From a virus, in IMG/VR virus record IMGVR_UViG_3300025010_000110, positions 1-43,840 of that record: 43,840 nucleotides of DNA. One strand, written 5' to 3'. Both the position numbers and the translations under genes were made by a program. Below the pieces are notes generated by a model that did no database searches, was not told the origin of the DNA, and saw nothing but the letters and a program-made list of their open reading frames with translations. Shown here in pieces: positions 12,843-37,191 of this stretch. Every line of letters starts with the position of its first letter. The first letter of the stretch is position 1.

Positions 12843-12952
12843 CACTGTTTGAATTTGTGGGTCACCTGTGGGTAACAGCAGCCATAATATTCCTTCTGGG
12901 TGTGTGGCGATATTGTAAAGTTACTAAGAACAATGAGGAGATCAGAGAATGA
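12839..12952 (+). CDS. Small membrane protein, 37 aa
   Basis: Coupled on both sides by ATGA overlaps. One hydrophobic span (HLWVTAAIIFLLGVW) followed by a basic, then acidic tail. Function unknown. Confidence 0.5.
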   Translation: MTLFEFVGHLWVTAAIIFLLGVWRYCKVTKNNEEIRE

Positions 12953-14637
12953 AAATAGTAGAACCAAAATATACAATTTTAACAAGCATGGATAGACATG
13001 AGATTCTGAAGCACCTGGAGTTTGCAGGTAGGATTTGTTACAAGTCTCAAGCCAAAGAGGGCAGTGCAGCCAATTTTGTAAAGAACACTATAATGAGCAA
13101 GAATCACCAGAGTGTAATAGAACATTTTTCTGTGTCTGTATTGTTTATGATTGACAGAGGCTGTTATGATGCTGAGACAGAAGTTCTAACAGAACAAGGG
13201 TGGAAGTTTTTTAAAGATGTTGTTTTTGAAGATAAAATAGCCTGTTTGTCAGATGAAGGTGAGCTTTTTTTTGATAAGCAAACGGATGCGCCACTTAATT
13301 ATTGGTATGAAGGTGATTTACTTCATTTTAAATCTACTATGATAGACCTTAATGTAACACCTGATCACAGAATGTGGGTTTTTGACTATGATAAAAGATC
13401 AGCTTCCACAAAAATATGGAAATTTTTAAAAGCATCTAATTTAAAAAATAGGCGTTATAAATTTGAAAAGACGTGCAATATTTGGCAGGGGAATACTCCC
13501 ATTATAACTATTAAAAAACATCCTACAAAATACAATAAGTTTCCAGAGAGAGTGTTCACTTATAAGGAAACACTCAGCTTATTTGAATTGCTAGGTTTGT
13601 GGATAACAGATGGCTCTTACAGGTGTGGCCATGGAGTAGGAGGGTCACAGGTGATTATATCCCAGACAAAAAAAGAAGGGGTATCCCGAATAAAGGAGTT
13701 ATGTGGGCTTCTGGGATTTCACTATTTGCACTATAAAAATGAAATCAGAATTGAAAATGAACGATTGAAAGTTTTGGTAGAATCTTTTTTTGGTAAGGGT
13801 GCCAAGACCTTTACTGCTAAAGTACCATCCGTCATAAAAAACTCCAACTCTGAATTAATATCCAGTTTTTTACAAGGAGTTATTTTAGGGGATGGTTCTA
13901 TCCACAAAAAAAATAAACACACTGTTGTTTACACTTCTTCTAAATTATTTGCAGACGATTTACAAGAGCTGTTTTTAAAGATAGGAAAGTCTGCTTCTAT
14001 TAGGGAAATAGCCCCTCGCAAAAGAGTATTCCCTAGTGGAGTGGTATCTGATTGTAAAAAAAGTTATGTAGTATCTGTTGCTGAAAAAGAGAGCAGTGTT
14101 CATTTGCTAAATAAAAAGGTAGCTTCTAGTTTTGGAGAAAAAAATAAATACAGAGGATATGTTTACTGCCTAACTGTACCAGGACACAGGTTGTATGTTA
14201 GACGCAAGGGCAAAGCTGTCTGGTGTGGTAACTGCTCACATGAGTTGGTAAGACACAGACTAGCCAGCTTTTCCCAGAGTTCTACCAGATACTGCAACTA
14301 CAGCAAGGACAAGTTTGGGAATGAGTTGACATTTATTTTACCATGCTTTTTGGAAAAAGACACCATAAAATATCAGCTGTGGGAATCAGCTATGCTGGAT
14401 GCAGAAGAATTTTATTTAGGACTTTTGAAAGAAGGAGCAAGTCCACAGGAAGCCAGGTCTGTACTACCAAATTCACTGATGACAGAGATTGTGGTCACTG
14501 CAAATTTAAGAGAGTGGCTACACATATTTGAATTGAGATGTAGTCCAGCAGCACACCCACAGATGCGAGAGATTATGATTCCACTGAGAAAGACAATGCA
14601 GACTATATTACCAGAAATATTTGGAGAACCAGTATGA
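12949..14637 (+). CDS. thyX: ThyX flavin-dependent thymidylate synthase interrupted by an intein
   Basis: Makes dTMP from dUMP with FAD and methylene-tetrahydrofolate. N-extein residues 1-71 (EFAGRICYKS, HQSVIEHFSVSV). Intein residues 72-428. C-extein 429-562 beginning CSHELVRHRLASFSQSSTRY, which carries the ThyX signature RHRxxSxxxxSxR, and later a conserved REWLHIFELRC-PAAHPQ segment. Spliced length would be 205 aa, normal for ThyX. The insertion is immediately before the active-site signature, a typical conserved intein target. The precursor is coupled to its neighbours at both ends. Confidence 0.9.
   Translation: MKIVEPKYTILTSMDRHEILKHLEFAGRICYKSQAKEGSAANFVKNTIMSKNHQSVIEHFSVSVLFMIDRGCYDAETEVLTEQGWKFFKDVVFEDKIACLSDEGELFFDKQTDAPLNYWYEGDLLHFKSTMIDLNVTPDHRMWVFDYDKRSASTKIWKFLKASNLKNRRYKFEKTCNIWQGNTPIITIKKHPTKYNKFPERVFTYKETLSLFELLGLWITDGSYRCGHGVGGSQVIISQTKKEGVSRIKELCGLLGFHYLHYKNEIRIENERLKVLVESFFGKGAKTFTAKVPSVIKNSNSELISSFLQGVILGDGSIHKKNKHTVVYTSSKLFADDLQELFLKIGKSASIREIAPRKRVFPSGVVSDCKKSYVVSVAEKESSVHLLNKKVASSFGEKNKYRGYVYCLTVPGHRLYVRRKGKAVWCGNCSHELVRHRLASFSQSSTRYCNYSKDKFGNELTFILPCFLEKDTIKYQLWESAMLDAEEFYLGLLKEGASPQEARSVLPNSLMTEIVVTANLREWLHIFELRCSPAAHPQMREIMIPLRKTMQTILPEIFGEPV
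13162..14232 (+). mobile_element. ThyX intein with LAGLIDADG homing endonuclease, 357 aa
   Basis: Cys72 starts block A (CYDAETEVLTEQGW). Block B is VTPDHRMW. The two LAGLIDADG helices are LFELLGLWITDGS and FLQGVILGDGS. The C-terminal block is VYCLTVPGHRLYVRRKG, ending CGN before the +1 Cys. The penultimate residue is Gly rather than the usual His, which may slow or alter Asn cyclisation. The segment is more AT-rich and uses more T-ending codons than the flanking exteins, a sign of later arrival. Confidence 0.9.
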
Positions 14638-18408: not shown

Positions 18409-18799
18409 CAACGTAAACCATCCCACCCACTACACCTCACATCCATCAGGTGTGGAGTGCATAGACATCGTAGAGCAGTTAAACTTCAACCTAGGCAATG
18501 CGTTCAAGTATGTGTTCAGGTACACTCTGAAGAACGGAGTAGAGGACCTGAAGAAAGCACATTGGTACTGCAAGAGAGAATTGGCAAGGGTAAACAATCT
18601 ACCCGATGTTAGCTGTGCAAGCGCAAGTGAGGCCAGAGAGACTATGTCTAAGATATTTGACTTGGTCCGGCAGGAACCCAATCAGGGCATAGCAGAGATC
18701 TACAAGAATCTTGTGCTGTGTCACTTCAGGGGAACCACAGCACCCCAGATGTCTGAGAAACTGCACAAAGTAATTCAACTCATCGAGCAATGCCAATAA
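18401..18799 (+). CDS. DUF3310-like phage protein
   Basis: 132 aa. The N-terminus VNHPTHYTSHPSGVECIDIVEQLNFNLGNAFKYVFRY, then LKKAHWYCKREL, is the characteristic core of DUF3310 (NHP-HY-G-ECID, GN-IKYL-R, D--KA--Y). The family is widespread in phages, and its biochemical role is unproven. The following helicase starts inside its last codons. Confidence 0.8.
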   Translation: MADNVNHPTHYTSHPSGVECIDIVEQLNFNLGNAFKYVFRYTLKNGVEDLKKAHWYCKRELARVNNLPDVSCASASEARETMSKIFDLVRQEPNQGIAEIYKNLVLCHFRGTTAPQMSEKLHKVIQLIEQCQ

Positions 18800-20829
18800 A
18801 AGAAGCAGTCTTTAGCAAGGGCATTTTCAACATAAAGTTCAAGTACCTACCCGGCAACGAGTGGGGAGAGTGCTTGGCTTTTGTGAAAGCATTGCCTAAC
18901 CGAACCTTTGATGGCAAGTCTATGCTATGGAAAGTACCTCATACCAAAGAGGTGGAGGACAAGCTCAGAGCACATGGGTTTAAGATCATTGGTCTGGACA
19001 AAACCAAGACCTACAACTTCCCAAAGACTGATTATAGATCCCAGTACATGCCTGTGCCCATAGATGAGACCTTGTTCCCTACTCTCAGAGCATATCAGAT
19101 TGAGTGTGTGAAGTTTCTGGAGTGGAGAAAGGGTAATGCACTGATAGCAGACCAGATGGGATGTGTGTGTGGCACCATGCCCATTACTATAAAAGATAGC
19201 ACTGGGGAGATCAGAAGAATAAGTCTTGAGCAAGCCTATCACTATCAGTTTCTACAACCTTTTAAAATCAGAAGCATGAATGAGACCAAGTTCTGTTTTA
19301 CTTTTAATAGCTTCAATAGAATAGTCTGTAGTGGTACAAAAGAAACCGTGCTTGTGGTCACTAAAAAAGGTTACAGGGTAAGACTCACAGCAGACCACGA
19401 GGTTAGAACATTCAAAGGTTGGGAACCCATAGGCAGTCTTAATGATGGACTACCTCTGCATTACATAGCTATCAATGCAGAGATAAGGATAAATATAGTT
19501 GTCTGGGATGAGATTGTCTCAATTACTCCAGATGGAAAGTCTGAGTGTTATGACATCATAATGAGAAACCCTCATAGAAACTTTGTGGCTTATGGAGTAG
19601 TGGTGCATAACTGTGGAAAGACAGCAGAATCACTTTCTTATGTAAAGCTACACCCAGAGAAAAGACCTGTCTTGATTGTTGTCAATGCACCTATTAAAAA
19701 GCAGTGGGAAAGAGAATACCCTAGGTGGGTGTTTAAAGAGGACATCAAGATATTATATGGAAAAACTCCTGTACTGACCGATAGCTATCCAGTTTATATA
19801 ATTAACTATGACATCTTGGACGCATGGAAACAGATACTTATTGATGAGCACATTCAGATTGTGATAGCCGATGAAATAACCGCTTTGTCCAAATCAAGTT
19901 CTAAAAGGTCTAAGGCTATGAGAGCTATTGTCAAAAAGACCAGAGCAGATTTCATAGCAATGTCGGGCACACCAATTAAGAAAAGGCCAGCTCAATTCTT
20001 TACAGTCCTCAATATGATAGATCCTATTAGTTTCCCCGATGAGTGGAAGTTCCTGAATAGGTACTGCAAGCCCCGGCACAATGGGTTTTCACTGGTGTAT
20101 GACGGCTGTAGCAATGTAGAGGAGCTGTATTCTAAAGTGCAACCCCTGATGATACGTAGAACCAAAGAAGATGTGCTGAAAGAACTTCCTGTGAGAACCA
20201 GAACTGTAGTCCCACTGTCCATTGAGACCAAGTACATGGAAGATTGGCAGGACATACTAAATCCGGGCATGGGGGCCAGAGAACTTAGGGAAAGAGTGGA
20301 GTCACTAAAGAACAGTGCATACAAGTACAAAGAAGCCAGTTGTATTGAGTGGATAAAGAACAAGTTGGAAGAGGTGGAAAAGTTGGTTGTGTTTGCATAC
20401 CACACTTCAGTGGTGGACAGCTTACACCTTGCTTTCCGGCAGCAGTCCAGAAAGATATATGGATCAACTTCACTTAGTGATAGAGATTTCTACATACAGG
20501 AGTTCATCAACAGTGATAAAGTAAACCTGCTTGTAATGAACATTGTCAGTGGTGGTGTGGGAATTGATGGTTTGCAGAAAGTTTGTGACACCACTGCTTT
20601 TGTAGAGTTTGCCTGGAGTGCAGCAGATCACGATCAGGCCGAATCCAGGTTACACAGAATGGGGCAGCAGAACCCTGTGGACATATTCTACCTTATTGGA
20701 CCCGATACCATTGATGAGCACCTGATGGAAATAGTAGATGAGAGCATTAAGAATTTTAGTCTAGTCATAGAAGGAAAACAAGCAGGGGAAGATGACCTCC
20801 TGCTGAAACTGAAGGAGAAAGCAAAATGA
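18790..20829 (+). CDS. SNF2-type DNA helicase/translocase with a mini-intein in Walker A
   Basis: 679 aa precursor. The N-terminal about 75 residues resemble a HARP-like domain. N-extein ends ...ALIADQMG (residue 124); C-extein resumes CGKTAES, so splicing restores the Walker A DQMGCGKT (family pattern DEMGLGKT). Further helicase motifs: VIADEITALSK (motif II), MSGTPIKK (motif III), and QAESRLHRMGQQNPVDIFYL (motif VI). The mature protein would be 529 aa. Without splicing the ATP site is broken, so activity depends on splicing. Likely roles are fork remodelling or recombination. Confidence 0.88.
   Translation: MPIKEAVFSKGIFNIKFKYLPGNEWGECLAFVKALPNRTFDGKSMLWKVPHTKEVEDKLRAHGFKIIGLDKTKTYNFPKTDYRSQYMPVPIDETLFPTLRAYQIECVKFLEWRKGNALIADQMGCVCGTMPITIKDSTGEIRRISLEQAYHYQFLQPFKIRSMNETKFCFTFNSFNRIVCSGTKETVLVVTKKGYRVRLTADHEVRTFKGWEPIGSLNDGLPLHYIAINAEIRINIVVWDEIVSITPDGKSECYDIIMRNPHRNFVAYGVVVHNCGKTAESLSYVKLHPEKRPVLIVVNAPIKKQWEREYPRWVFKEDIKILYGKTPVLTDSYPVYIINYDILDAWKQILIDEHIQIVIADEITALSKSSSKRSKAMRAIVKKTRADFIAMSGTPIKKRPAQFFTVLNMIDPISFPDEWKFLNRYCKPRHNGFSLVYDGCSNVEELYSKVQPLMIRRTKEDVLKELPVRTRTVVPLSIETKYMEDWQDILNPGMGARELRERVESLKNSAYKYKEASCIEWIKNKLEEVEKLVVFAYHTSVVDSLHLAFRQQSRKIYGSTSLSDRDFYIQEFINSDKVNLLVMNIVSGGVGIDGLQKVCDTTAFVEFAWSAADHDQAESRLHRMGQQNPVDIFYLIGPDTIDEHLMEIVDESIKNFSLVIEGKQAGEDDLLLKLKEKAK
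19162..19611 (+). mobile_element. Mini-intein in the helicase P-loop, 150 aa
   Basis: Cys125 to Asn274. Blocks: CVCGTMPITIKDSTGEIRRI (A), RVRLTADHEVRTFKGWEPI (B), VVWDEIVSITPDGKSECYDI (F) and NFVAYGVVVHN before the +1 Cys (G). There is no endonuclease domain between B and F, so it can no longer home by itself. A second Cys at 127 could be confused with the nucleophile, but only Cys125 restores a proper Walker A. The F block resembles that of the free-standing Hint-HNH protein at 12030. Confidence 0.88.
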
Positions 20830-25475: not shown

Positions 25476-27953
25476 ATGGGAGCCTTCTTCGATCTGGGTG
25501 TGAACACCCACATAGTAAAGCAGAAGAAGGAAATTGACCACACCAAGTCTTGTACTAAGTGTGGTCTTTTAGAACAGTGCCCTACACCCTTTATGAGAAC
25601 TATGGGTGCAGGTGGTTTAAAAGTTCTGTTTATATTTGACCAGGCATCACGCAGGAACACTATGTCAGGGGATCTTCAAAGTCCTTACATCAAAAGGATA
25701 GAAAAGAAGTTGGGCATAGATTTCAGCAAAGATGTCTGGTCAGTTTTTGGAGTTAAGTGTCACTCAAGAAAAGCACCAACAGACACACAAATCACAAGTT
25801 GCCGAAGATTCCTATATAAAACCATTAGAGAACTGAATCCAGAGATCATAATCCCAATGGGAACACTGGCTATCAAAAGTTTACTCAATCACAAGATCAG
25901 TGGAAGAATTAGCAATGTTGACCGGGAGCACTACATTGGGGAGCAGATACCTGATAGAGACCTAAATGCTTGGGTATGCCCTACTTATGACTTTGAAACC
26001 TGTGCTGAAGACAGAAATGGGGACTACGAGGGTCTGATGTATGAGCACCTCAAAGCAGCACTGGCAATGACAATGGAACCTTTTCCAGAGCTCTGGGACA
26101 ACTGGGAGAGCACAACAGACCCTAAGAAGGCTATTGAGTGGATTGAGGCCGTGGGAACGAAGGAAGTAGCCTTTGACTATGAAACCACAGGGATTAAACC
26201 TCACAGACAGGGACAACAGATTATTTGTTGCAGCCTAGCCTATGACAAAAAGGCATATAGCTTTCCCTATTTTGGTGAAAACGAAGAGTTTAAAGCCGTT
26301 TTTTGCAAATTTCTTGCAGGAAAGTCACTTAAGATAGCCCATAAAGCTGATTTTGAAATGTCCTGGAGCCAGAATATTTGTGGAGTCAGACCTAAAATAC
26401 ACTGGGACACCTGTCTGGCAGCACATTGTATAAATAACAATAAAGCGGTGGGATTGAAGTTCCTGACTTATGTAAAACTTGGGGTAATTGGATATGATGA
26501 TGGCATTGACAACTTTCTGAAACTAAGACCAGGAGAAAGAGAGAAGAGCTGCAACAGCTTTAATAAAATGCTGGAGTGCAATCCCAGTGTGCTTATGAAG
26601 TACAATGCTTTGGACTCACTCTACACCCTACAACTTTACTACATGCAGAAACCCGAACTCAAGGGCAGATTCCTCAAGGGCTTTGAGTTCTTTATGGAAA
26701 CCCTGCATAGTTTGCACTCCATGCACGAAGCCGGATTCAATATAGATGCCAAGCAGATGCTTGAGAACAATCAGATCATCACAGAGAGCATGGAGAAACT
26801 GCACCGGAGAATTACCAGATGTGAGGAGTTTAAGAATTACCCAGGTGAGCTTAACATAGACTCCACAACACAGCTCAATAAACTATTCTATGAGATTCTG
26901 GGCTATCCAGAACCCGAAGAAGCAAAGATGGATGTGGAAGCACTGCAAAACATAGATAGCCAGTTTGCAAACTTAATTGTGCAGTACAGGAAGCTGAAGA
27001 AGATAAGGGACACATACTATGCTCAATTCAAGAATGAACTGGTATATGGTCCAGATAAGATTTATCCGTTCTTTGGCATACATCTTGCAGCTACGTACAG
27101 AACAAATTCTTACTCCGTTAACCTTCAAAATCAGTCCAAACGTGACCAGGATGCTAAGAAGTACATACGATCAATTATAAAGCCCAGTCCTGGAAACATG
27201 CTTGTTGAATTTGACTATAAAATGATTGAAGTTTGTGTGGGTTGCGTATATCATAAGGATCCTCAAATGATGACCTATGTGATGGATGAGACCACGGACA
27301 TGCACCGGGACACAGCAATGGATTTGTTCTTCAGGGACAAGGAAACATTTACCAAGGATGAGAGATTCTGTGCAAAGAACGGATTTGTATTCCCCAGTTT
27401 CTATGGCAGCACATACAAGGCCATAGCACCAAACCTGTGGAAGATGATTCCAGATGGCACCAGAACACACTTAGCCAGTAATGGCATAAGGACTCTTCTG
27501 GACTTTAGTGCTCATGTTAAGGCCATTGAGGACAAGTTCTGGAACGAAAGATTTCCCGTGTATAAGCAATGGAAGCAAGAGCTCTGGGAGAAGTATCTCA
27601 GACTGGGTTATATAGAAAGTCTTGATGGGTTCAAGTTCTATGGTCCCATGAGTTTTACTGAACTAACCAACAGGCAGATTCAGTGCAGTGCCAGTCATTG
27701 TGTGCTGTGGACAATTAATAAAATAATAGACAAGATTCCCCAAAAGAATTGTATAATAGGACAGATACATGATGCTATCGTCATGGACTTAAATCCACTA
27801 CATGAAGATCTTGTGGACTCACTTGTGAAACAGTATGGAACCATTGAGATCAGAAAGGAGTGGGACTGGATCAATGTACCACTTACAATCGAGAAAGAGA
27901 AATCAGAAATAAATGGAAACTGGGCAGAAATGAAAGGAGCAGGTAAGCTATGA
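25476..27953 (+). CDS. Family A DNA polymerase with N-terminal UDG-like Fe-S domain
   Basis: 825 aa. Residues about 20-200 resemble family-4 uracil-DNA glycosylase: candidate Fe-S cysteines at 26, 29 or 35, 95 and 109, with VKCHSRKAPTDTQITSC and LNPEIIIPMGTLAIKSLL. The catalytic GEAPG motif is not kept (FDQASRR), so it may be structural. The 3'-5' exonuclease begins at VAFDYETTG (Asp234, Glu236), with IAHKADFEMSW and YNALDSLYTL. PolA motifs: A VEFDYKMIE (Asp580), B RFCAKNGFVFPSFYG, C QIHDAIVMD (His765, Asp766). Motif C has Ala where most enzymes have Glu. This UDG-exo-pol layout is known from SPO1-like phages. The ribosome-binding site is weak. Confidence 0.9.
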   Translation: MGAFFDLGVNTHIVKQKKEIDHTKSCTKCGLLEQCPTPFMRTMGAGGLKVLFIFDQASRRNTMSGDLQSPYIKRIEKKLGIDFSKDVWSVFGVKCHSRKAPTDTQITSCRRFLYKTIRELNPEIIIPMGTLAIKSLLNHKISGRISNVDREHYIGEQIPDRDLNAWVCPTYDFETCAEDRNGDYEGLMYEHLKAALAMTMEPFPELWDNWESTTDPKKAIEWIEAVGTKEVAFDYETTGIKPHRQGQQIICCSLAYDKKAYSFPYFGENEEFKAVFCKFLAGKSLKIAHKADFEMSWSQNICGVRPKIHWDTCLAAHCINNNKAVGLKFLTYVKLGVIGYDDGIDNFLKLRPGEREKSCNSFNKMLECNPSVLMKYNALDSLYTLQLYYMQKPELKGRFLKGFEFFMETLHSLHSMHEAGFNIDAKQMLENNQIITESMEKLHRRITRCEEFKNYPGELNIDSTTQLNKLFYEILGYPEPEEAKMDVEALQNIDSQFANLIVQYRKLKKIRDTYYAQFKNELVYGPDKIYPFFGIHLAATYRTNSYSVNLQNQSKRDQDAKKYIRSIIKPSPGNMLVEFDYKMIEVCVGCVYHKDPQMMTYVMDETTDMHRDTAMDLFFRDKETFTKDERFCAKNGFVFPSFYGSTYKAIAPNLWKMIPDGTRTHLASNGIRTLLDFSAHVKAIEDKFWNERFPVYKQWKQELWEKYLRLGYIESLDGFKFYGPMSFTELTNRQIQCSASHCVLWTINKIIDKIPQKNCIIGQIHDAIVMDLNPLHEDLVDSLVKQYGTIEIRKEWDWINVPLTIEKEKSEINGNWAEMKGAGKL

Positions 27954-31123: not shown

Positions 31124-32362
31124 ATGAACATCAAAGAAACAAGGGATTATTTTATGGCTGAAAAGAAAGTCAAGAAACCAGTTTATTTTAGTACAGGCAT
31201 CACTTTACTTGATCTTGCCGTAGGTGGTAGTGAGAGCAGAGGACTTCCAGCAGGGACCATTGTGAACCTAACCGGAGATCCACAAACAGGCAAGAGCCTT
31301 ATCTGTACGGAATCAGTGGCTAAGAACAAGAGCCTTTACAAAGACTTTGCCTGGAACTATGATGATGCCGAGAATGGCAACAGCTTCAATGCAAAAAAAC
31401 TATATGGCTTTGATCTATTCCATGACAAGACATTGACATCAGGCACCGTAGAAGAGTTTGATGCACATGTATCATATTTTCTCAAACACAACGAAGGCAA
31501 GAAAGGTCAGTATGTACTGGACAGCCTTGATGGACTCTCCAACAATGACAAGGAAGAGAGGTCAGCACAGAGATTGAAAGATTTTGAAGCCGGAAAGGAA
31601 GTTGTGAGTGCAGGTACTTTCGACACAGCCACACCTAAGTTCATGTCCCAGGACTTCTTCAAGGTACAGGCAAGCAACTTTGAGAGAACCGATTCAATAC
31701 TTTGGATTATCTCTCAGACCCGGCAGAACATGTCCACAGCACCCTTCAAATCCAAAAGAGTGAAGACAGGTGGAGATGCCGTATTGTTTTTCTGCTCTGC
31801 AATCATCTGGTTACACCATGTCAGCTTTATTGTAAAGAATGGACTCAAGGTGGGACTTATTGTGCGAGCTGAGATCAAGAAAGGCAGAACAGACAGACCT
31901 TACCGGGAATGTACTTTCAGTCTTTACTTTGACTATGGCATCGACAACATAGGATCAAATCTGGACTACTTGTTTGATTTGCGTACAGAAAAGACTGGAG
32001 AGCTGAACAAGAGAGCTGAAGCAATACAGTGGGGAGGCAAAGAAGCCACTCTAGCCAATGTTGTGAAGTTCCTGAAAGACGAAGGTTGTTATGAGGAAGT
32101 GCAAGCGGAGAAACTGACAGCCAGTGGTAAGAAAGCACTAGAAATTGAATGGTTGCAAAATTACTTTCAGAATGCCGAGAATAAATTGTATAATAAGTAC
32201 AAAGAAACATTCTCGCAGGAAGCACCCAAAACCAGGGAAGAACTCATCAGGGCAATAGAAGAGTCGCCTGAGATGCAGAAAGAACTGGAGAACAGGGTGA
32301 TTGCTATGTGGGAAGCAGAGGAGGCCAAAGTTGCAACAAATAGAAAACCTAAGTATGCCTAA
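31124..32362 (+). CDS. RecA/UvsX-family recombinase
   Basis: 412 aa. Walker A GDPQTGKS within a RecA-type entry (FSTGITLLDLAVGG), Walker B YVLDSLDGLS, the loop-1 equivalent ISQTRQNMS, and the strand RAEIKKGRTDRPYRECTFSLYF before DYGIDNIGS-LDYL as in UvsX and RecA. It forms filaments on ssDNA and drives strand exchange, with SSB upstream and the resolvase and SbcCD downstream. A C-terminal helical extension (about 330-412) is rich in Glu/Lys. A TGTATAAT box at 32187-32194 lies within the gene. Confidence 0.85.
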   Translation: MNIKETRDYFMAEKKVKKPVYFSTGITLLDLAVGGSESRGLPAGTIVNLTGDPQTGKSLICTESVAKNKSLYKDFAWNYDDAENGNSFNAKKLYGFDLFHDKTLTSGTVEEFDAHVSYFLKHNEGKKGQYVLDSLDGLSNNDKEERSAQRLKDFEAGKEVVSAGTFDTATPKFMSQDFFKVQASNFERTDSILWIISQTRQNMSTAPFKSKRVKTGGDAVLFFCSAIIWLHHVSFIVKNGLKVGLIVRAEIKKGRTDRPYRECTFSLYFDYGIDNIGSNLDYLFDLRTEKTGELNKRAEAIQWGGKEATLANVVKFLKDEGCYEEVQAEKLTASGKKALEIEWLQNYFQNAENKLYNKYKETFSQEAPKTREELIRAIEESPEMQKELENRVIAMWEAEEAKVATNRKPKYA

Positions 32363-32975: not shown

Positions 32976-33485
32976 ATGAGTAGAGTGCTATACATAGGAT
33001 TAGATAATGGGGTAACTTCTTCATATGGTTTCGTTACAGAAGGCTATGCAGCCATGTGTAAAGCCCCTACCAAATCAGAGCAGAGCTACACAAAGAAGGA
33101 GGGAAATATCACCCGGATACAAGTTGATGATCTTAAACTAGCAATACATAATCATTGGAATCTCTCTGGAGCAGAGACAGTAAAAGTGTTTTTGGAGAGG
33201 ATGATGATCAATGCTATGAGATTCAAAGCATCTATCTCAGCAGCAAGGGCACTGGAGGCTACAATCATTGCACTGGAACAGATGGGACTGGGTTTTGAAT
33301 ACATAGACTCAAAGCAGTGGCAGAAGAAAATACTGCCTCCTACAATCAAAGGTTCAGCAGACCTGAAGAAAGCAAGCATGGATATTGGACTGCGCATATA
33401 CCCACAGCTCTCTGCAATAATCAAAAAGCACAAAGATGCAGATGGACTTCTTATGGCTCACTGGGCTTATGTGAATAAATTATGA
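32976..33485 (+). CDS. RuvC-like Holliday junction resolvase
   Basis: 169 aa, the usual size. RNase H-fold acidic residues are in place: Asp10 in YIGLDNGVT, Glu74 in KVFLERM, and Asp154/Asp156 in HKDADGLLMAHW. YIDSKQWQKKILP matches the family's P/S-x-W strand. It would resolve four-way junctions made by the recombinase or trim DNA for packaging. ATGA overlap to the next gene. Confidence 0.8.
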   Translation: MSRVLYIGLDNGVTSSYGFVTEGYAAMCKAPTKSEQSYTKKEGNITRIQVDDLKLAIHNHWNLSGAETVKVFLERMMINAMRFKASISAARALEATIIALEQMGLGFEYIDSKQWQKKILPPTIKGSADLKKASMDIGLRIYPQLSAIIKKHKDADGLLMAHWAYVNKL

Positions 33486-33814
33486 GCTTGAGAATAAGAG
33501 ACCTTCCCGGATATAACAGCAAAGAGTTTACTATGAAAGCCAATGCACCCAAGTATGAGGGGCTAAGTGTTGCCCTTGATGTGAAGTTTGACAAGTGTCC
33601 TAATTGTAGCATGGTGGTATGCACCTGTGACAAGGACTGGATACTGGACTACAACCAAAAGCTCAAGATGAAATTTATTGAACTGAAGAATAGAGTGCAG
33701 GAAAGCATGAAAGTGCCCTGCAAGTATTGTATTATGAACTGCCCTGAGTACAGGGATTCTGTATGCTATCCTTGTGCGACTACAATGTATTCCAAATTCA
33801 TGGAGAAGAAATGA
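33482..33814 (+). CDS. Zinc-finger-type protein, 110 aa
   Basis: ATGA overlaps at both ends. Cys pairs CPNC, CTC, CKYC, CPEY, CYPC indicate two possible zinc sites separated by a helix. It lies between the resolvase and the Rad50 N-half. No assigned role. Confidence 0.5.
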   Translation: MSLRIRDLPGYNSKEFTMKANAPKYEGLSVALDVKFDKCPNCSMVVCTCDKDWILDYNQKLKMKFIELKNRVQESMKVPCKYCIMNCPEYRDSVCYPCATTMYSKFMEKK

Positions 33815-35019
33815 TAAAATCAGCAGCCATAACAAACTTTCAGTCCCACAGGGCTACCAACTTTGACTTCTCACCGGGCATAAACGTGATCATTGGTGAA
33901 TCTGACAGGGGCAAGTCAGCAGCTCTTAGGGCTATAATGTGGTGTCTCACCAACAAACCAGCAGGGGACAGCTTTGTCTCCCATTGGATAAAGACCAAAA
34001 AGGACTTCATCAAGCAAGGTGAAGAATGTAGTGTACTCCTAACTACAGGGAAGGGCTACGTTAAGCGATTCAAGAACTCTGGTACAAACGGGTACAACAT
34101 CAACGGGAACCCTCTGGAGGCCCTGGGAAGAGGAAATATACCCACTGAAGTTGAAGAGTTCTTCAACATGGGTGAAGCCAATATTCAGAGGCAACTGGAC
34201 AGTCCATTCCTGCTCACCCAGACTTCGGGTGAAATAGCTAGGTTCTTCAATGGAATCATCAAACTGGACAGCATCGACAAAGCACTGGGTCTAATCGACT
34301 CACAGAAGAGAGAAACCAAGTCTGACATCAATGCCGAAGAGAAGAAAGCACTGACCCTGAAGGCTGAGATTACTGCCCTGCACTGGGTAAGACCACTCAA
34401 GGCCAGGATTGAAGAACTCGAAGATGTCTGGATGGAGCTTGTGGAGAAAAAAGAAAGGTTAGCAAGACTCCGAACTCTTTTGACAAACATTAGGGAAACC
34501 CAGAGAAAACTTGATAGGTTCAAAACCTTAAATGACACCAAAGCCCTGCTTAACACAGCAGAAGTTGTGAAGGACAGACTAGACACTCTCATTGAGGACA
34601 ACATAAAGCTCAAGCAAATCATAGAAGTATGCACCAATGCGAATATACGCATATTAGTATATACTAATATACTTATGGTAGGTGATAAGATTGCACTGGC
34701 TGAGAAGATTGGGACAAGGATTGTAGGTTTAAAGGAGAAGCAAGAGGAACTGAGGAAGCTCATACTGGTGATTACTAAGTCCGAACTTGGACTGAACAGG
34801 TTAAAACAGATTGATTTCCCCGGATTAAGTGAGAAACTTGAGTGGTTGGGGAAGAATGATATAGCCGAGCAGAAGCTGAACCTGTATAAATTTAAAGATT
34901 TGATAAATAATGTTAGAAAAACAACACAATTAGTGTATAATAAGGAAAAGGAGATTGAGGTAATAAAGACTCAATTCCCGGAAACCTGTCCCACTTGTGG
35001 AGGAGCTTTTAAAATATGA
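33811..35019 (+). CDS. SbcC/Rad50 N-terminal half ending at the zinc hook
   Basis: 402 aa from the ATG at 33811, which overlaps the previous stop. Residues 1-50 carry the Rad50/SMC ATPase N-lobe (FQSHRATNFDFSPGINVIIG, Walker A GESDRGKS). A Q-loop-like LLTQTSGEIA follows, then about 200 residues of coiled coil. The protein ends with ETCPTCGG (Cys393, Cys396), the zinc-hook half, and stops six residues after the second Cys. The C-lobe is absent here; it is encoded separately at 36318. The next gene (sbcD-like) overlaps by 4 bases. Confidence 0.85.
   Translation: MIKSAAITNFQSHRATNFDFSPGINVIIGESDRGKSAALRAIMWCLTNKPAGDSFVSHWIKTKKDFIKQGEECSVLLTTGKGYVKRFKNSGTNGYNINGNPLEALGRGNIPTEVEEFFNMGEANIQRQLDSPFLLTQTSGEIARFFNGIIKLDSIDKALGLIDSQKRETKSDINAEEKKALTLKAEITALHWVRPLKARIEELEDVWMELVEKKERLARLRTLLTNIRETQRKLDRFKTLNDTKALLNTAEVVKDRLDTLIEDNIKLKQIIEVCTNANIRILVYTNILMVGDKIALAEKIGTRIVGLKEKQEELRKLILVITKSELGLNRLKQIDFPGLSEKLEWLGKNDIAEQKLNLYKFKDLINNVRKTTQLVYNKEKEIEVIKTQFPETCPTCGGAFKI
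34651..34670. promoter_or_regulatory. Palindromic operator O3, perfect 20-bp palindrome inside the Rad50 N-half gene
   Basis: ATATTAG-TATATA-CTAATAT is a fully symmetric 20-mer with the same arms and 6-bp spacing as O1 and O2. The right flank continues ACTTATGGTAGGT, matching O1 apart from one base. It is in frame in the coding sequence. A binding site here could control transcription through the SbcCD genes or serve a non-regulatory task such as partition. Confidence 0.6.
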
Positions 35020-35861
35020 AATGGTTAATTTCCGGTGATTTACATGCACGCCAGACAGCCCCTAGATGTCGGATTGACCCTGACTGGATTGCCTCACAGA
35101 GAAAGAATTTGGAGAAAATCAGGGACACTGCTGTTGATCTCCACTGTACTTTTGTTGTTTTGACTGGAGACCTTTTTCATGTAGCCAAAGCAACCAATGA
35201 ATTGGTGAATCTCTATTTGGAAGTTTTTACAGATTTTGCAAATGAGATACTTAACCCAGTGCTTTTTATTTTACCTGGTAATCATGATCTCCTGTATAAT
35301 AGCATACAGTATATTGAGCAAACTGCTGTGGGGACATTGTTGAAAACATATAATGGAGTAGTAGAATTATCTGAGTTTCCTTACAAGTTCATCCATACCC
35401 TTTGCTTTCCCTCGGACAAAGAGAGGCCAGTCAAAGGCATTGGGATTACAGCACAGGAGCTTCTGGATGCCAACAGGGATTGCAGGGGTATCTTTACAGG
35501 GGACTATCACAGATCGTTCTTCTACAAAGCCCCAGATGGCAGATTTGTACTCAATCCGGGCTGCTTGAACATCCAGGCTGCTGATATGATTGACTACATT
35601 CCCAAAATAGCGATTTTTGACACCATAACTGAGGAAGTGGAGTGGGTGCAGGTAGAAGAGAATCCACTGGAGTTTGTGGACACCAACTATCTGGATCAGA
35701 AGAAAGTCAAAGAAGACAGCATGGGGAAGTTCATAGAGGTCATTCAGAGCAACCAGGGAATAACACTTGACTTTGTAAGCAACTTGCAGCAGAGGGTTCA
35801 AGATACCACTCTAGGTGATAATACCAGAAAATTATTAGAGACCATCCTTGTTCAACTTTAA
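35016..35861 (+). CDS. SbcD/Mre11-like nuclease
   Basis: 281 aa. Calcineurin-type phosphoesterase motifs: SGDLHAR (I), LTGDLFH (II), LPGNHDLL (III), then FTGDYHRS in place of GHxH and NPGCLN. It is a Mn2+-dependent 3'-5' exonuclease and endonuclease subunit working with the split SbcC/Rad50. It is shorter than SbcD (about 400 aa), lacking the usual capping domain. It lies between the two Rad50 halves. Confidence 0.85.
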   Translation: MKWLISGDLHARQTAPRCRIDPDWIASQRKNLEKIRDTAVDLHCTFVVLTGDLFHVAKATNELVNLYLEVFTDFANEILNPVLFILPGNHDLLYNSIQYIEQTAVGTLLKTYNGVVELSEFPYKFIHTLCFPSDKERPVKGIGITAQELLDANRDCRGIFTGDYHRSFFYKAPDGRFVLNPGCLNIQAADMIDYIPKIAIFDTITEEVEWVQVEENPLEFVDTNYLDQKKVKEDSMGKFIEVIQSNQGITLDFVSNLQQRVQDTTLGDNTRKLLETILVQL

Positions 35862-35880
35862 CTTTGGAGCAATATAGAAA

Positions 35881-36099
35881 ATGTTAAGAATTTGTGAGAA
35901 CATAGATAATCATCTACCCATTACTTATGAAGGTATTGAGAACACGGGCTACCCAATATGCTTTCAGATAGAAACAATGAAAGCAAAGCTGAAAGAAATA
36001 GATGATTTTTATGGGATCACACAGCAGCTATTGTTTGAGCAGGAACAGTTTAAAAAAGAAGGTGAATTTTACCGAAAAAGAGAGGAAGAAAATGGCTAG
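35881..36099 (+). CDS. Hypothetical helical protein, 72 aa
   Basis: Between SbcD and the Rad50 C-half. Helical, Glu/Lys/Gln-rich C-terminal region, with a short Cys/His-poor N-terminus. It overlaps the next gene. It could be part of the complex, but no motif shows this. Confidence 0.5.
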   Translation: MLRICENIDNHLPITYEGIENTGYPICFQIETMKAKLKEIDDFYGITQQLLFEQEQFKKEGEFYRKREEENG

Positions 36100-36325
36100 T
36101 ATTGATGAATTAAAACAGAAACTAAGAACAGCAGAAGCAGACAAGTCCAAGGCTGAAGGTATGCTTCAGAGCTACACAGACACTCTGGCAACCACTTTTG
36201 GGTGCAGCAGTGTAGAACAGGCTGAGAAGCTGCAACAGGACACAGAGACTCAGATAGTTGCACTGGAGTCCAAGTACAATGAAATGCTTGGCGAAGTAGA
36301 AAAGGAACTGAAGACCTATGCTTGA
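36092..36325 (+). CDS. Small coiled-coil protein within the split-Rad50 operon, 77 aa
   Basis: ATG at 36092 after GAGGAAGAA; 8-base overlaps on both sides. Almost entirely heptad coiled coil (IDELKQKLRTAEADKSKAEG, QDTETQIVALESKYNEML). It may contribute a piece of the returning Rad50 coil, since the C-half at 36318 carries only a short coil. This is inference from position and composition. Confidence 0.55.
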   Translation: MASIDELKQKLRTAEADKSKAEGMLQSYTDTLATTFGCSSVEQAEKLQQDTETQIVALESKYNEMLGEVEKELKTYA

Positions 36326-36932
36326 GCACATCAAGTCCAAGGTGCAGCAGGTCATGGGGAAACTTACTTTTCTCGAAGACTCTTTGGTCATTGCTAACAA
36401 AGAACTTGTAAACCTCAGAGCACTGCAACTGGCCCAAGAGGAAGCACAAGCACTGATTCAGCAAGTCGCACAGGAGACCCAGAACAGTGTGAGTGTACAC
36501 ATCGAAGAGATCGTACAGGCAGCTCTAAGTTCCGTGTTTGGAGAAAAGTACCAGTTCAAGTTGAAGTTTGAGAGCAAAAGAGGAAAGACTGAAGCCAACA
36601 TTTTCCTGGAAGAGAAAGGTATTCAAATTGATCCACTGGACAGTACAGGTGGTGGAGTTGTTGACATCGTGAGCTTTGCGCTTAGAATAGCAGTCTGGGT
36701 ACTTAGCAAAAAAGCAAAGACAATACTTCTGGATGAGCCCTTCAAGTTTCTCAGTGCGGAGTACAAGCCCCTGATGGGAGAGTTTCTCCGTGCGATCTCA
36801 GATAAGTTAGGGCTTCAGATTATCTGTGTAACCCATGACAGCTTCCTGATTGAAATAGCGGATAAATACTTTCTGGTGGACATGGAAGGCAAGGAAAGTT
36901 TTATCAGCAAAGAGGGCAGGTATGAGTCGTAA
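36318..36932 (+). CDS. SbcC/Rad50 C-terminal half (ATPase C-lobe)
   Basis: 204 aa. About 70 residues of coiled coil are followed by the ABC/Rad50 C-lobe: signature-like STGGGVVDIVSFALRIA, Walker B TILLDEPFKFLS, and D-loop and H-loop equivalents ending in IICVTHDSFLIEIAD. It has no Walker A and no hook Cys, so it must join the protein at 33811 to make a working ATPase. The order Rad50N-sbcD-two small helical genes-Rad50C is unusual. Confidence 0.85.
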   Translation: MLEHIKSKVQQVMGKLTFLEDSLVIANKELVNLRALQLAQEEAQALIQQVAQETQNSVSVHIEEIVQAALSSVFGEKYQFKLKFESKRGKTEANIFLEEKGIQIDPLDSTGGGVVDIVSFALRIAVWVLSKKAKTILLDEPFKFLSAEYKPLMGEFLRAISDKLGLQIICVTHDSFLIEIADKYFLVDMEGKESFISKEGRYES

Positions 36933-37191
36933 ACCCAGAGGCAAAAGTAACAAAGTACAGGGTCATGGAAAAAGGCTCATGGAGCTTATGGTTACTTTCA
37001 AAAGCCTAAGTAGAAAGGAGTTGCTTACTTACTTGGCTGGAAAGGACATACCACCTGCTCAGATTGATACCCTGGTACACAGACTTGTGAATCGAGGCAT
37101 CTTGAAAGCTAACCCTGTTACCTACTCATTGGCTATACCCGAAGAAGATGTGATAGCAAAAGAGAATATCAAAAAGGATTTGTTTCTATAA
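36922..37191 (+). CDS. Winged-helix protein, 89 aa
   Basis: Overlaps the Rad50 C-half by 11 bases. Basic N-terminus (SRKPRGKSNKVQGHGKR), then SLSRKELLTYLAGKDIPPAQIDTLV and HRLVNRGILKA, a helix-turn-helix with wing. Likely DNA-binding; it may regulate or assist the recombination module. Confidence 0.55.
   Translation: MSRKPRGKSNKVQGHGKRLMELMVTFKSLSRKELLTYLAGKDIPPAQIDTLVHRLVNRGILKANPVTYSLAIPEEDVIAKENIKKDLFL

Follow-up and report, generated by a model that had tools for sequence, protein, structure and literature searches.

Rad50/SbcC is usually regarded as a single chain that runs out to a zinc hook and back. In a viral stretch of 43,840 nucleotides (IMG/VR record IMGVR_UViG_3300025010_000110, positions 1 to 43,840; from this point on, the window), a first-pass annotation had pointed to a rad50-like gene that stops just past the hook, with the other half of the protein encoded further downstream. 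Is this locus a damaged gene, two unrelated neighbors, or a natural Rad50 built from several polypeptides? We find it very probable that the locus encodes a functional DNA-end-processing complex of the Rad50/Mre11 (SbcCD) type whose Rad50 consists of three polypeptides, referred to here as N-half, C-half and a small protein, s. The head and its partners are well supported; the biochemistry is what we infer.

Genes of the probable split Rad50 in the window

Open reading frames (ORFs) of the window and their translations were read, and domain searches were run against Pfam, PHROGs, NCBIfam and PADLOC. The cassette reads as follows:

33811..35019, plus strand: N-half, comprising Rad50 lobe I, a long helical arm and a complete CPTC zinc hook at the C-terminus (Pfam AAA_23, 1.2e-14; AlphaFold2 (AF2) model; Foldseek)
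35016..35861, plus strand: SbcD/Mre11-like metallophosphoesterase (Pfam Metallophos, 2.7e-7; phrog_100, SbcD-like, 1.6e-13; motifs)
35881..36099, plus strand: helical gene of 72 amino acids within the cassette, lineage-specific and probably no core component (phmmer against fetched loci)
36092..36325, plus strand: s, a small coiled-coil protein of 77 amino acids, the conserved third component (iterated profile; E-value in the window, 2.3e-18)
36318..36932, plus strand: C-half, comprising a short head-proximal coil and Rad50 lobe II (phrog_15167, 2.3e-36; profile matches to 3qkr_B and 1ii8_B)

The N-half (402 residues) has its Walker A motif, GESDRGKS, at residue 29 and its Q-loop glutamine at residue 128. 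As the first-pass annotation had read it, this gene with Walker A and a coil ends (at ETCPTCGGAFKI) six residues past CPTC. Helices are predicted by AF2 at residues 152-189, 193-325 and 350-388, and the best Foldseek match of the model is the N-lobe of P. furiosus Rad50. No SMC hinge domain lies between arm and stop in the N-half sequence or AF2 model, which have the CxxC only. The C-half (204 residues) likewise agrees with the earlier description of a separate C-lobe gene at 36318, following sbcD and two small helical genes. It carries GGGVVD at the signature position, Walker B (ILLDEP), FLS in the D-loop region and TH at the H-loop; Pfam SMC_N/AAA_21 match it with an E-value of about 1e-5, under the cut-off. 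NCBIfam models of Rad50 and SbcD also match, with scores under their cut-offs, and NCBIfam offers no model dedicated to the split family. In the SbcD-like protein, the motifs GDLH, GDLF, GNHD, GDYH and NPG are recognizable. Walker A and the Q-loop therefore sit on the N-half, and the signature position, Walker B and H-loop on the C-half. Judged by these motifs, neither half alone can be a complete ATP-binding cassette (ABC) ATPase and, because neither holds the full set, the two would have to pair to make a head. Overlaps of 4-8 nucleotides between genes (4 for N-half/SbcD, 8 for 36092/C-half, and another at 35881/36092) resemble those of a translationally coupled operon.

Recurrence in viruses, plasmids and Bacillota chromosomes

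A scan of viral contigs with the window N-half as sole query gave no matches. Scanning IMG/VR with a profile yielded 80 loci, and 78 non-redundant loci were analyzed; a profile scan of genomes supplied the best 80 of 223 loci, mostly Bacillota chromosomes. Over all loci, the CxxC hook lies within 40 residues of the C-terminus in 140 of the 146 unique N-halves that have a C-half partner, with 2-37 residues between hook and stop across the family. None of the 140 is single-chain, which rules out the sequencing error, joining the N-half to another frame, that the first-pass annotation had itself raised. Among the 78 viral and plasmid loci, the fetched DNA includes an N-lobe gene for 73; in 68 of these 73 the CxxC occurs at a distance of 23 residues or fewer from the end (median 9). 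Single-chain forms number zero. An alignment of 59 diverse N-halves leaves only three invariant columns, the Q-loop Gln (Q128) and the two hook Cys residues (C393 and C396). In C-halves, Walker B DE and H-loop TH are invariant, the D-loop Asp is mostly Ser, and the signature is GGGxxD, not SGGE, in nearly the whole family (e.g. window 36645-36670).

N- and C-halves are separate genes in every surveyed locus but one, and an SbcD-like gene occurs in nearly all. To illustrate, gp32 of Bacillus phage vB_BboS-125, identified by tblastn, ends with GGICPLCEQTHKGGGC, and gp34 (a 78-residue coil) and gp35 (C-half) are genes of their own; in L008, a relative on a viral contig, the N-half (ending PPTCPLCGGDYIKHNQ) is accompanied by SbcD, a small coil gene and a C-half. 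Halves flanking sbcD, as described for the window, are indeed found there, but this order is one arrangement among several and not a general rule. Of the two small genes proposed as arm partners, the one at 36092 is a conserved partner, but phmmer found no relatives of 35881 in any fetched locus. Plasmids of Bacillus, Alkaliphilus, Cetobacterium, Geobacillus, Aneurinibacillus and Paenibacillus also carry the system. In the last three genera SbcD is fused ahead of the N-half and the hook remains at the very end of the fusion; such SbcD-N fusions occur in seven plasmid or virus loci (L013-L016, L062, L077 and L083), with L083 showing the fusion, then s, then a separate C-half. The exception to separate halves is L177 (2655-4754, minus strand, genome G054), where a single protein of 700 amino acids joins SbcD, N-lobe and C-lobe, and arm, hook and s are lost. 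This natural SbcD-N-C fusion and the SbcD-N fusions speak for the halves being partners. The earlier claim of a Rad50/SbcC split at the hook apex, whose two proteins rebuild head and hook, finds support in about 140 homologous loci, the invariant hook Cys residues, the fusions and a two-lobe model match described below.

Several individual loci merit separate mention. The L177 product is in effect a hookless mini Mre11-Rad50 (MR) protein. Microbacterium phage Magritte has its halves far apart (L004 5001-6053 and L003 284-934), with neither hook nor s. In a Cetobacterium plasmid (L011 6439-7534), the N-half occupies two overlapping frames, the second ending CPTCNKEF, reflecting either an additional split or an error that shifted the frame; the same locus has an iscB gene between its C-half and SbcD genes.

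The first-pass annotation had suggested searching phages for the same gene order. The system does recur in phages but is not specific to them, as it also forms a compact operon in Bacillota chromosomes: SbcD (~330 amino acids), N-half (~480), s (~84) and C-half (~220). In 47 loci of the genome-scan set, the operon sits between recA, directly 5', and rny; in Halalkalibacterium halodurans, for instance, all four genes lie between these two. A full-length canonical SbcC was not found in 8 of 10 operon-carrying genomes. Among 299 genomes of the phylum, whose completeness is unstated, 49 have a C-half, 120 a canonical SbcC and two have both versus 19.7 expected (Fisher p = 6.6e-10, a significance inflated by shared descent), one of the two having only a weak SbcC match. 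The split version seems to stand in for canonical SbcC, and the direction of the trend is clear. In L105, L107, L159 and L166, the C-half adjoins rny with no N-half, s or SbcD nearby; these are relocated or orphan halves. A tree of joined lobes, built from 42 split systems and 11 canonical bacterial and phage sequences, places all 42 in one clade apart from the 11 (support 100/100); in it, the operons from chromosomes fall together with copies from Bacillota phages and plasmids. On this phylogeny, the split systems are most simply read as one old family.

Head, arm and the third component

The best PDB matches of the C-half profile are 3qkr_B and 1ii8_B, the C-segments of P. furiosus Rad50, and the N-half profile and model match the Rad50 N-lobe. 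In the P. furiosus head crystal structures, the N and C segments were reportedly also encoded separately (1ii8, chains A and B). In one locus, L108, the N-half, s and C-half share a frame and are split only by stops and a codon or two, and the read-through, with stops taken as Gly, was modeled by AF2 as a single chain. Read-through rows were also used in place of a MAFFT alignment of separate N, s and C fragments, which was smeared. The L108 model, with the halves covalently tied (predicted template-modeling score, pTM, 0.49), has confident lobes and gives target-normalized TM scores of 0.66 to 3qku_A and 3av0_B and 0.67 to 5dny_D; one-lobe alignments of it reach only 0.38-0.41. The two halves are accordingly predicted, from this model, to form one head, a prediction to which the natural L177 fusion of both lobes lends independent support.

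Between lobe and hook, the N-half varies in steps. In 120 de-duplicated sequences, lobe-to-hook lengths fall into classes near 136, 183, 228-241, 288 and 337 residues with few or none between, and the best period is 52 (R 0.81; 99% level of the jitter control, 0.29), relatedness accounting for part of the stepping, above all in the chromosomal set. The arms change in steps of ~48-52 residues (e.g. window 34300-34990), and Pro recurs in them every 45-49 residues, a repeat reached by 0 of 200 shuffles. The arm of the L108 model consists of helices of 43-51 residues with short breaks. An arm of self-folded, spectrin-like repeats was considered for the window and rejected, as AF2 gives a continuous helix of 133 residues there. 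A modular arm survives, on the strength of the stepped lengths and the L108 helix breaks.

In 88 of 95 loci, an iterated profile of the 77-residue protein finds a relative directly 5' of the C-half, usually 0-280 bp away from it (lowest E-values, about 1e-23); two further relatives lie at other places in their loci. All loci of the genome set that hold both halves have s. It was not found in phage Magritte, where the N-half is hookless, in the L177 fusion, in loci lacking an N-half in the fetched DNA, or in the contig fragment L054. In the L108 model, s forms two helices with a short break between. Most likely, s packs along the arm on its descending side, a position that we infer. In the shortest class, s and the C-half coil together (77 + 60 residues) are as long as the arm, suggesting that the return strand may consist of these two.

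The alternative that survives best concerns s alone: the halves would pair as a Rad50 head, but s would be unrelated or regulatory, an inhibitor or loader for example, and no part of the arm. Its constant size of ~80 residues, while the arm ranges from 133 to 429, is in keeping with this. Nevertheless, we think it unlikely, though a serious contender, as the coiled-coil s accompanies a hooked arm almost always and is missing where arm or hook is lost, and the shortest arms (about 136 residues) would just match s and the C-half coil.

In the three-polypeptide Rad50 that we favor, the N-half would supply the ascending arm, the whole CxxC hook and, in the ABC head, lobe I, and the C-half would supply lobe II and a short head-proximal coil, with s (~80 residues, coiled coil) lying along the arm on the descending side. 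N-half and C-half would pair into one head, two heads would dimerize around ATP, and SbcD would bind where the arms leave the heads. Each zinc hook takes one CxxC from each of two arms, so a chain break just past the CxxC would leave the zinc site intact. Zinc-mediated dimerization, nuclease function and a role in break repair or recombination beside RecA/UvsX would be expected of such a complex.

Several points weigh against this picture. Arms of 133-429 residues are usually longer than s and the C-half coil together (about 77 + 60). The head model comes from one locus, with stops read as residues, tied halves and a pTM of 0.49. The window SbcD has GDYH where GHxH is expected, GGG for SGGE in the signature may alter the ATPase, and mutual exclusion with canonical SbcC is partly phylogenetic.

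More tentatively, as a possibility we would rate somewhat short of even, the family may represent an ancient three-chain Rad50 common to phages and Bacillota, in which the hook arm is a free end of countable ~48-residue modules and s a separable component of arm or hook; the length of the arm and the engagement of the hook could then be set or regulated with the ATPase lobes left unchanged. A widespread natural version whose chain ends at the hook shows that the return strand need not belong to the same chain. Its short, separately expressible parts lend themselves to asking how signals pass from hook to head, which has long been a question. A candidate SbcCD for many Bacillota that appear to lack one is provided as well.

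The surroundings of the cassette are those of a replication and recombination module. Genes at 33811-37000 sit with those for a DnaB-like helicase, a family A DNA polymerase, a clamp loader, a RecA/UvsX, a Holliday-junction resolvase and a primase. The recombinase lies upstream of the cassette:

31124..32362, plus strand: RecA/UvsX-like recombinase (Pfam RecA, 1.1e-10; phrog_97, UvsX-like, 1.2e-25)

A Cys-rich protein of 110 amino acids, probably zinc-binding (33482-33814), overlaps the start of the N-half by 4 nucleotides. For the winged-helix gene 3' of the C-half (36922), a phmmer search of the fetched loci gave no relatives. Elsewhere in the window, an insert with a LAGLIDADG motif, probably an intein, interrupts a ThyX gene (12949-14637), a SNF2-type helicase has a weak match to an intein-splicing domain inside it (18790-20829), and close to the N-terminus of the family A DNA polymerase (25476-27953) there is a short match of the uracil-DNA-glycosylase kind (3e-5).

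Remaining alternatives and known systems

Another reading is an SMC-like defense system against phages or plasmids, of the Lamassu or Gabija kind. PADLOC LmuB models do match the N-half (8.4e-20 for a chromosomal copy, 2.2e-13 for the window), but the matches cover the shared ATPase fold. LmuB and GajA are single-chain SMC/OLD-like ATPases with a defense effector and context, whereas here the chains are split, the partner is SbcD and the chromosomal setting is recA-rny. That fixed place, together with the SbcD partner, the exclusion of SbcC and the phage replication modules, fits repair or recombination better, and we consider a defense role improbable. Readings as an SMC protein or as RecN/RecF were rejected, as there is no hinge and Rad50 segments are the best matches.

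It is a shade less probable again that the halves are independent ATPases that only happen to adjoin and have different jobs, one of them RecF/RecN-like or ParA-like, for example, and the other an ABC protein in its own right. Some annotations do read 'exonuclease', 'ATPase' or 'ParA', and the four C-halves beside rny have no N-half nearby. Each half, however, lacks the motifs that the other holds, what the halves match best in the PDB is Rad50 (its N and C segments), a natural fusion of N-lobe and C-lobe is known, and the halves co-occur in nearly all loci. Finally, a single-chain sbcC split by sequencing error, frameshift, insertion or pseudogene decay has a negligible chance of being right: halves and SbcD do match Rad50/SbcC families and some loci do look broken (L011, L030 and L064), but the idea is refuted because the identical break recurs in about 140 distinct loci of unrelated source, and the positions of s and SbcD vary, many loci have other genes between the halves, the hook Cys residues are invariant, and the N- and C-lobes cluster in a single clade that excludes the single-chain proteins.

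The three-polypeptide Rad50, which the first-pass annotation had called possibly undescribed, does seem so: no description of a Rad50 split at the hook was found in open-access full text. Its parts are present in PHROGs, where phrog_16465 ('exonuclease'), phrog_15167 ('ATPase') and phrog_18563 (unknown) match relatives of the N-half, C-half and s, respectively, but they are listed as unconnected families and not as one split protein; our reading would give a function to all three. P. furiosus Rad50 constructs (PDB 1f2t, 1ii8 and 3qkr) similarly make one head from N and C segments on separate chains, but they are engineered and lack the full arm or hook, whereas the break described here occurs naturally and falls past the hook. 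SMC proteins are known to have multimodal arm lengths (PMC5344682). The preferred classes shown there are for proteins with an SMC hinge, whereas the present steps of ~48-52 residues belong to the arm of a split Rad50; they make it testable if Rad50 arms function at particular lengths only, as SMC arms do.

Yoshida et al. 2011 (PMC3175470) report SbcD/SbcC fusions on plasmids and in Bacillus phage 0305phi8-36, and state that one SbcC P-loop segment 'was not observed' in that phage and in Anaerostipes. As in our SbcD-N loci, SbcD is fused there to a Rad50-like part; the missing segment is not followed further in the sections consulted, and a separate C-half, as in L083, may explain its absence from the phage fusion.

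Canonical SbcCD and Rad50-Mre11 share with the split system the ABC motifs spread over lobes I and II, the coiled arm, the CxxC hook and the SbcD/Mre11 partner. In canonical single chains (n = 11; ten bacterial SbcC and T4 gp46), a single CxxC lies near mid-chain, for instance at 506-520 of 1014-1030 residues or 287 of 560, and both lobes are on that one chain; here, Rad50 takes three genes, the hook-bearing chain ends just past the hook, and there is an extra protein, s. The ten cellular SbcC sequences fetched have LSGGE, YSGGE or FSGGE as signature, where the split family has GGG. The split system departs from SbcC in two defining features, the one chain and the SGGE signature, while keeping its other head motifs, its hook and its SbcD partner.

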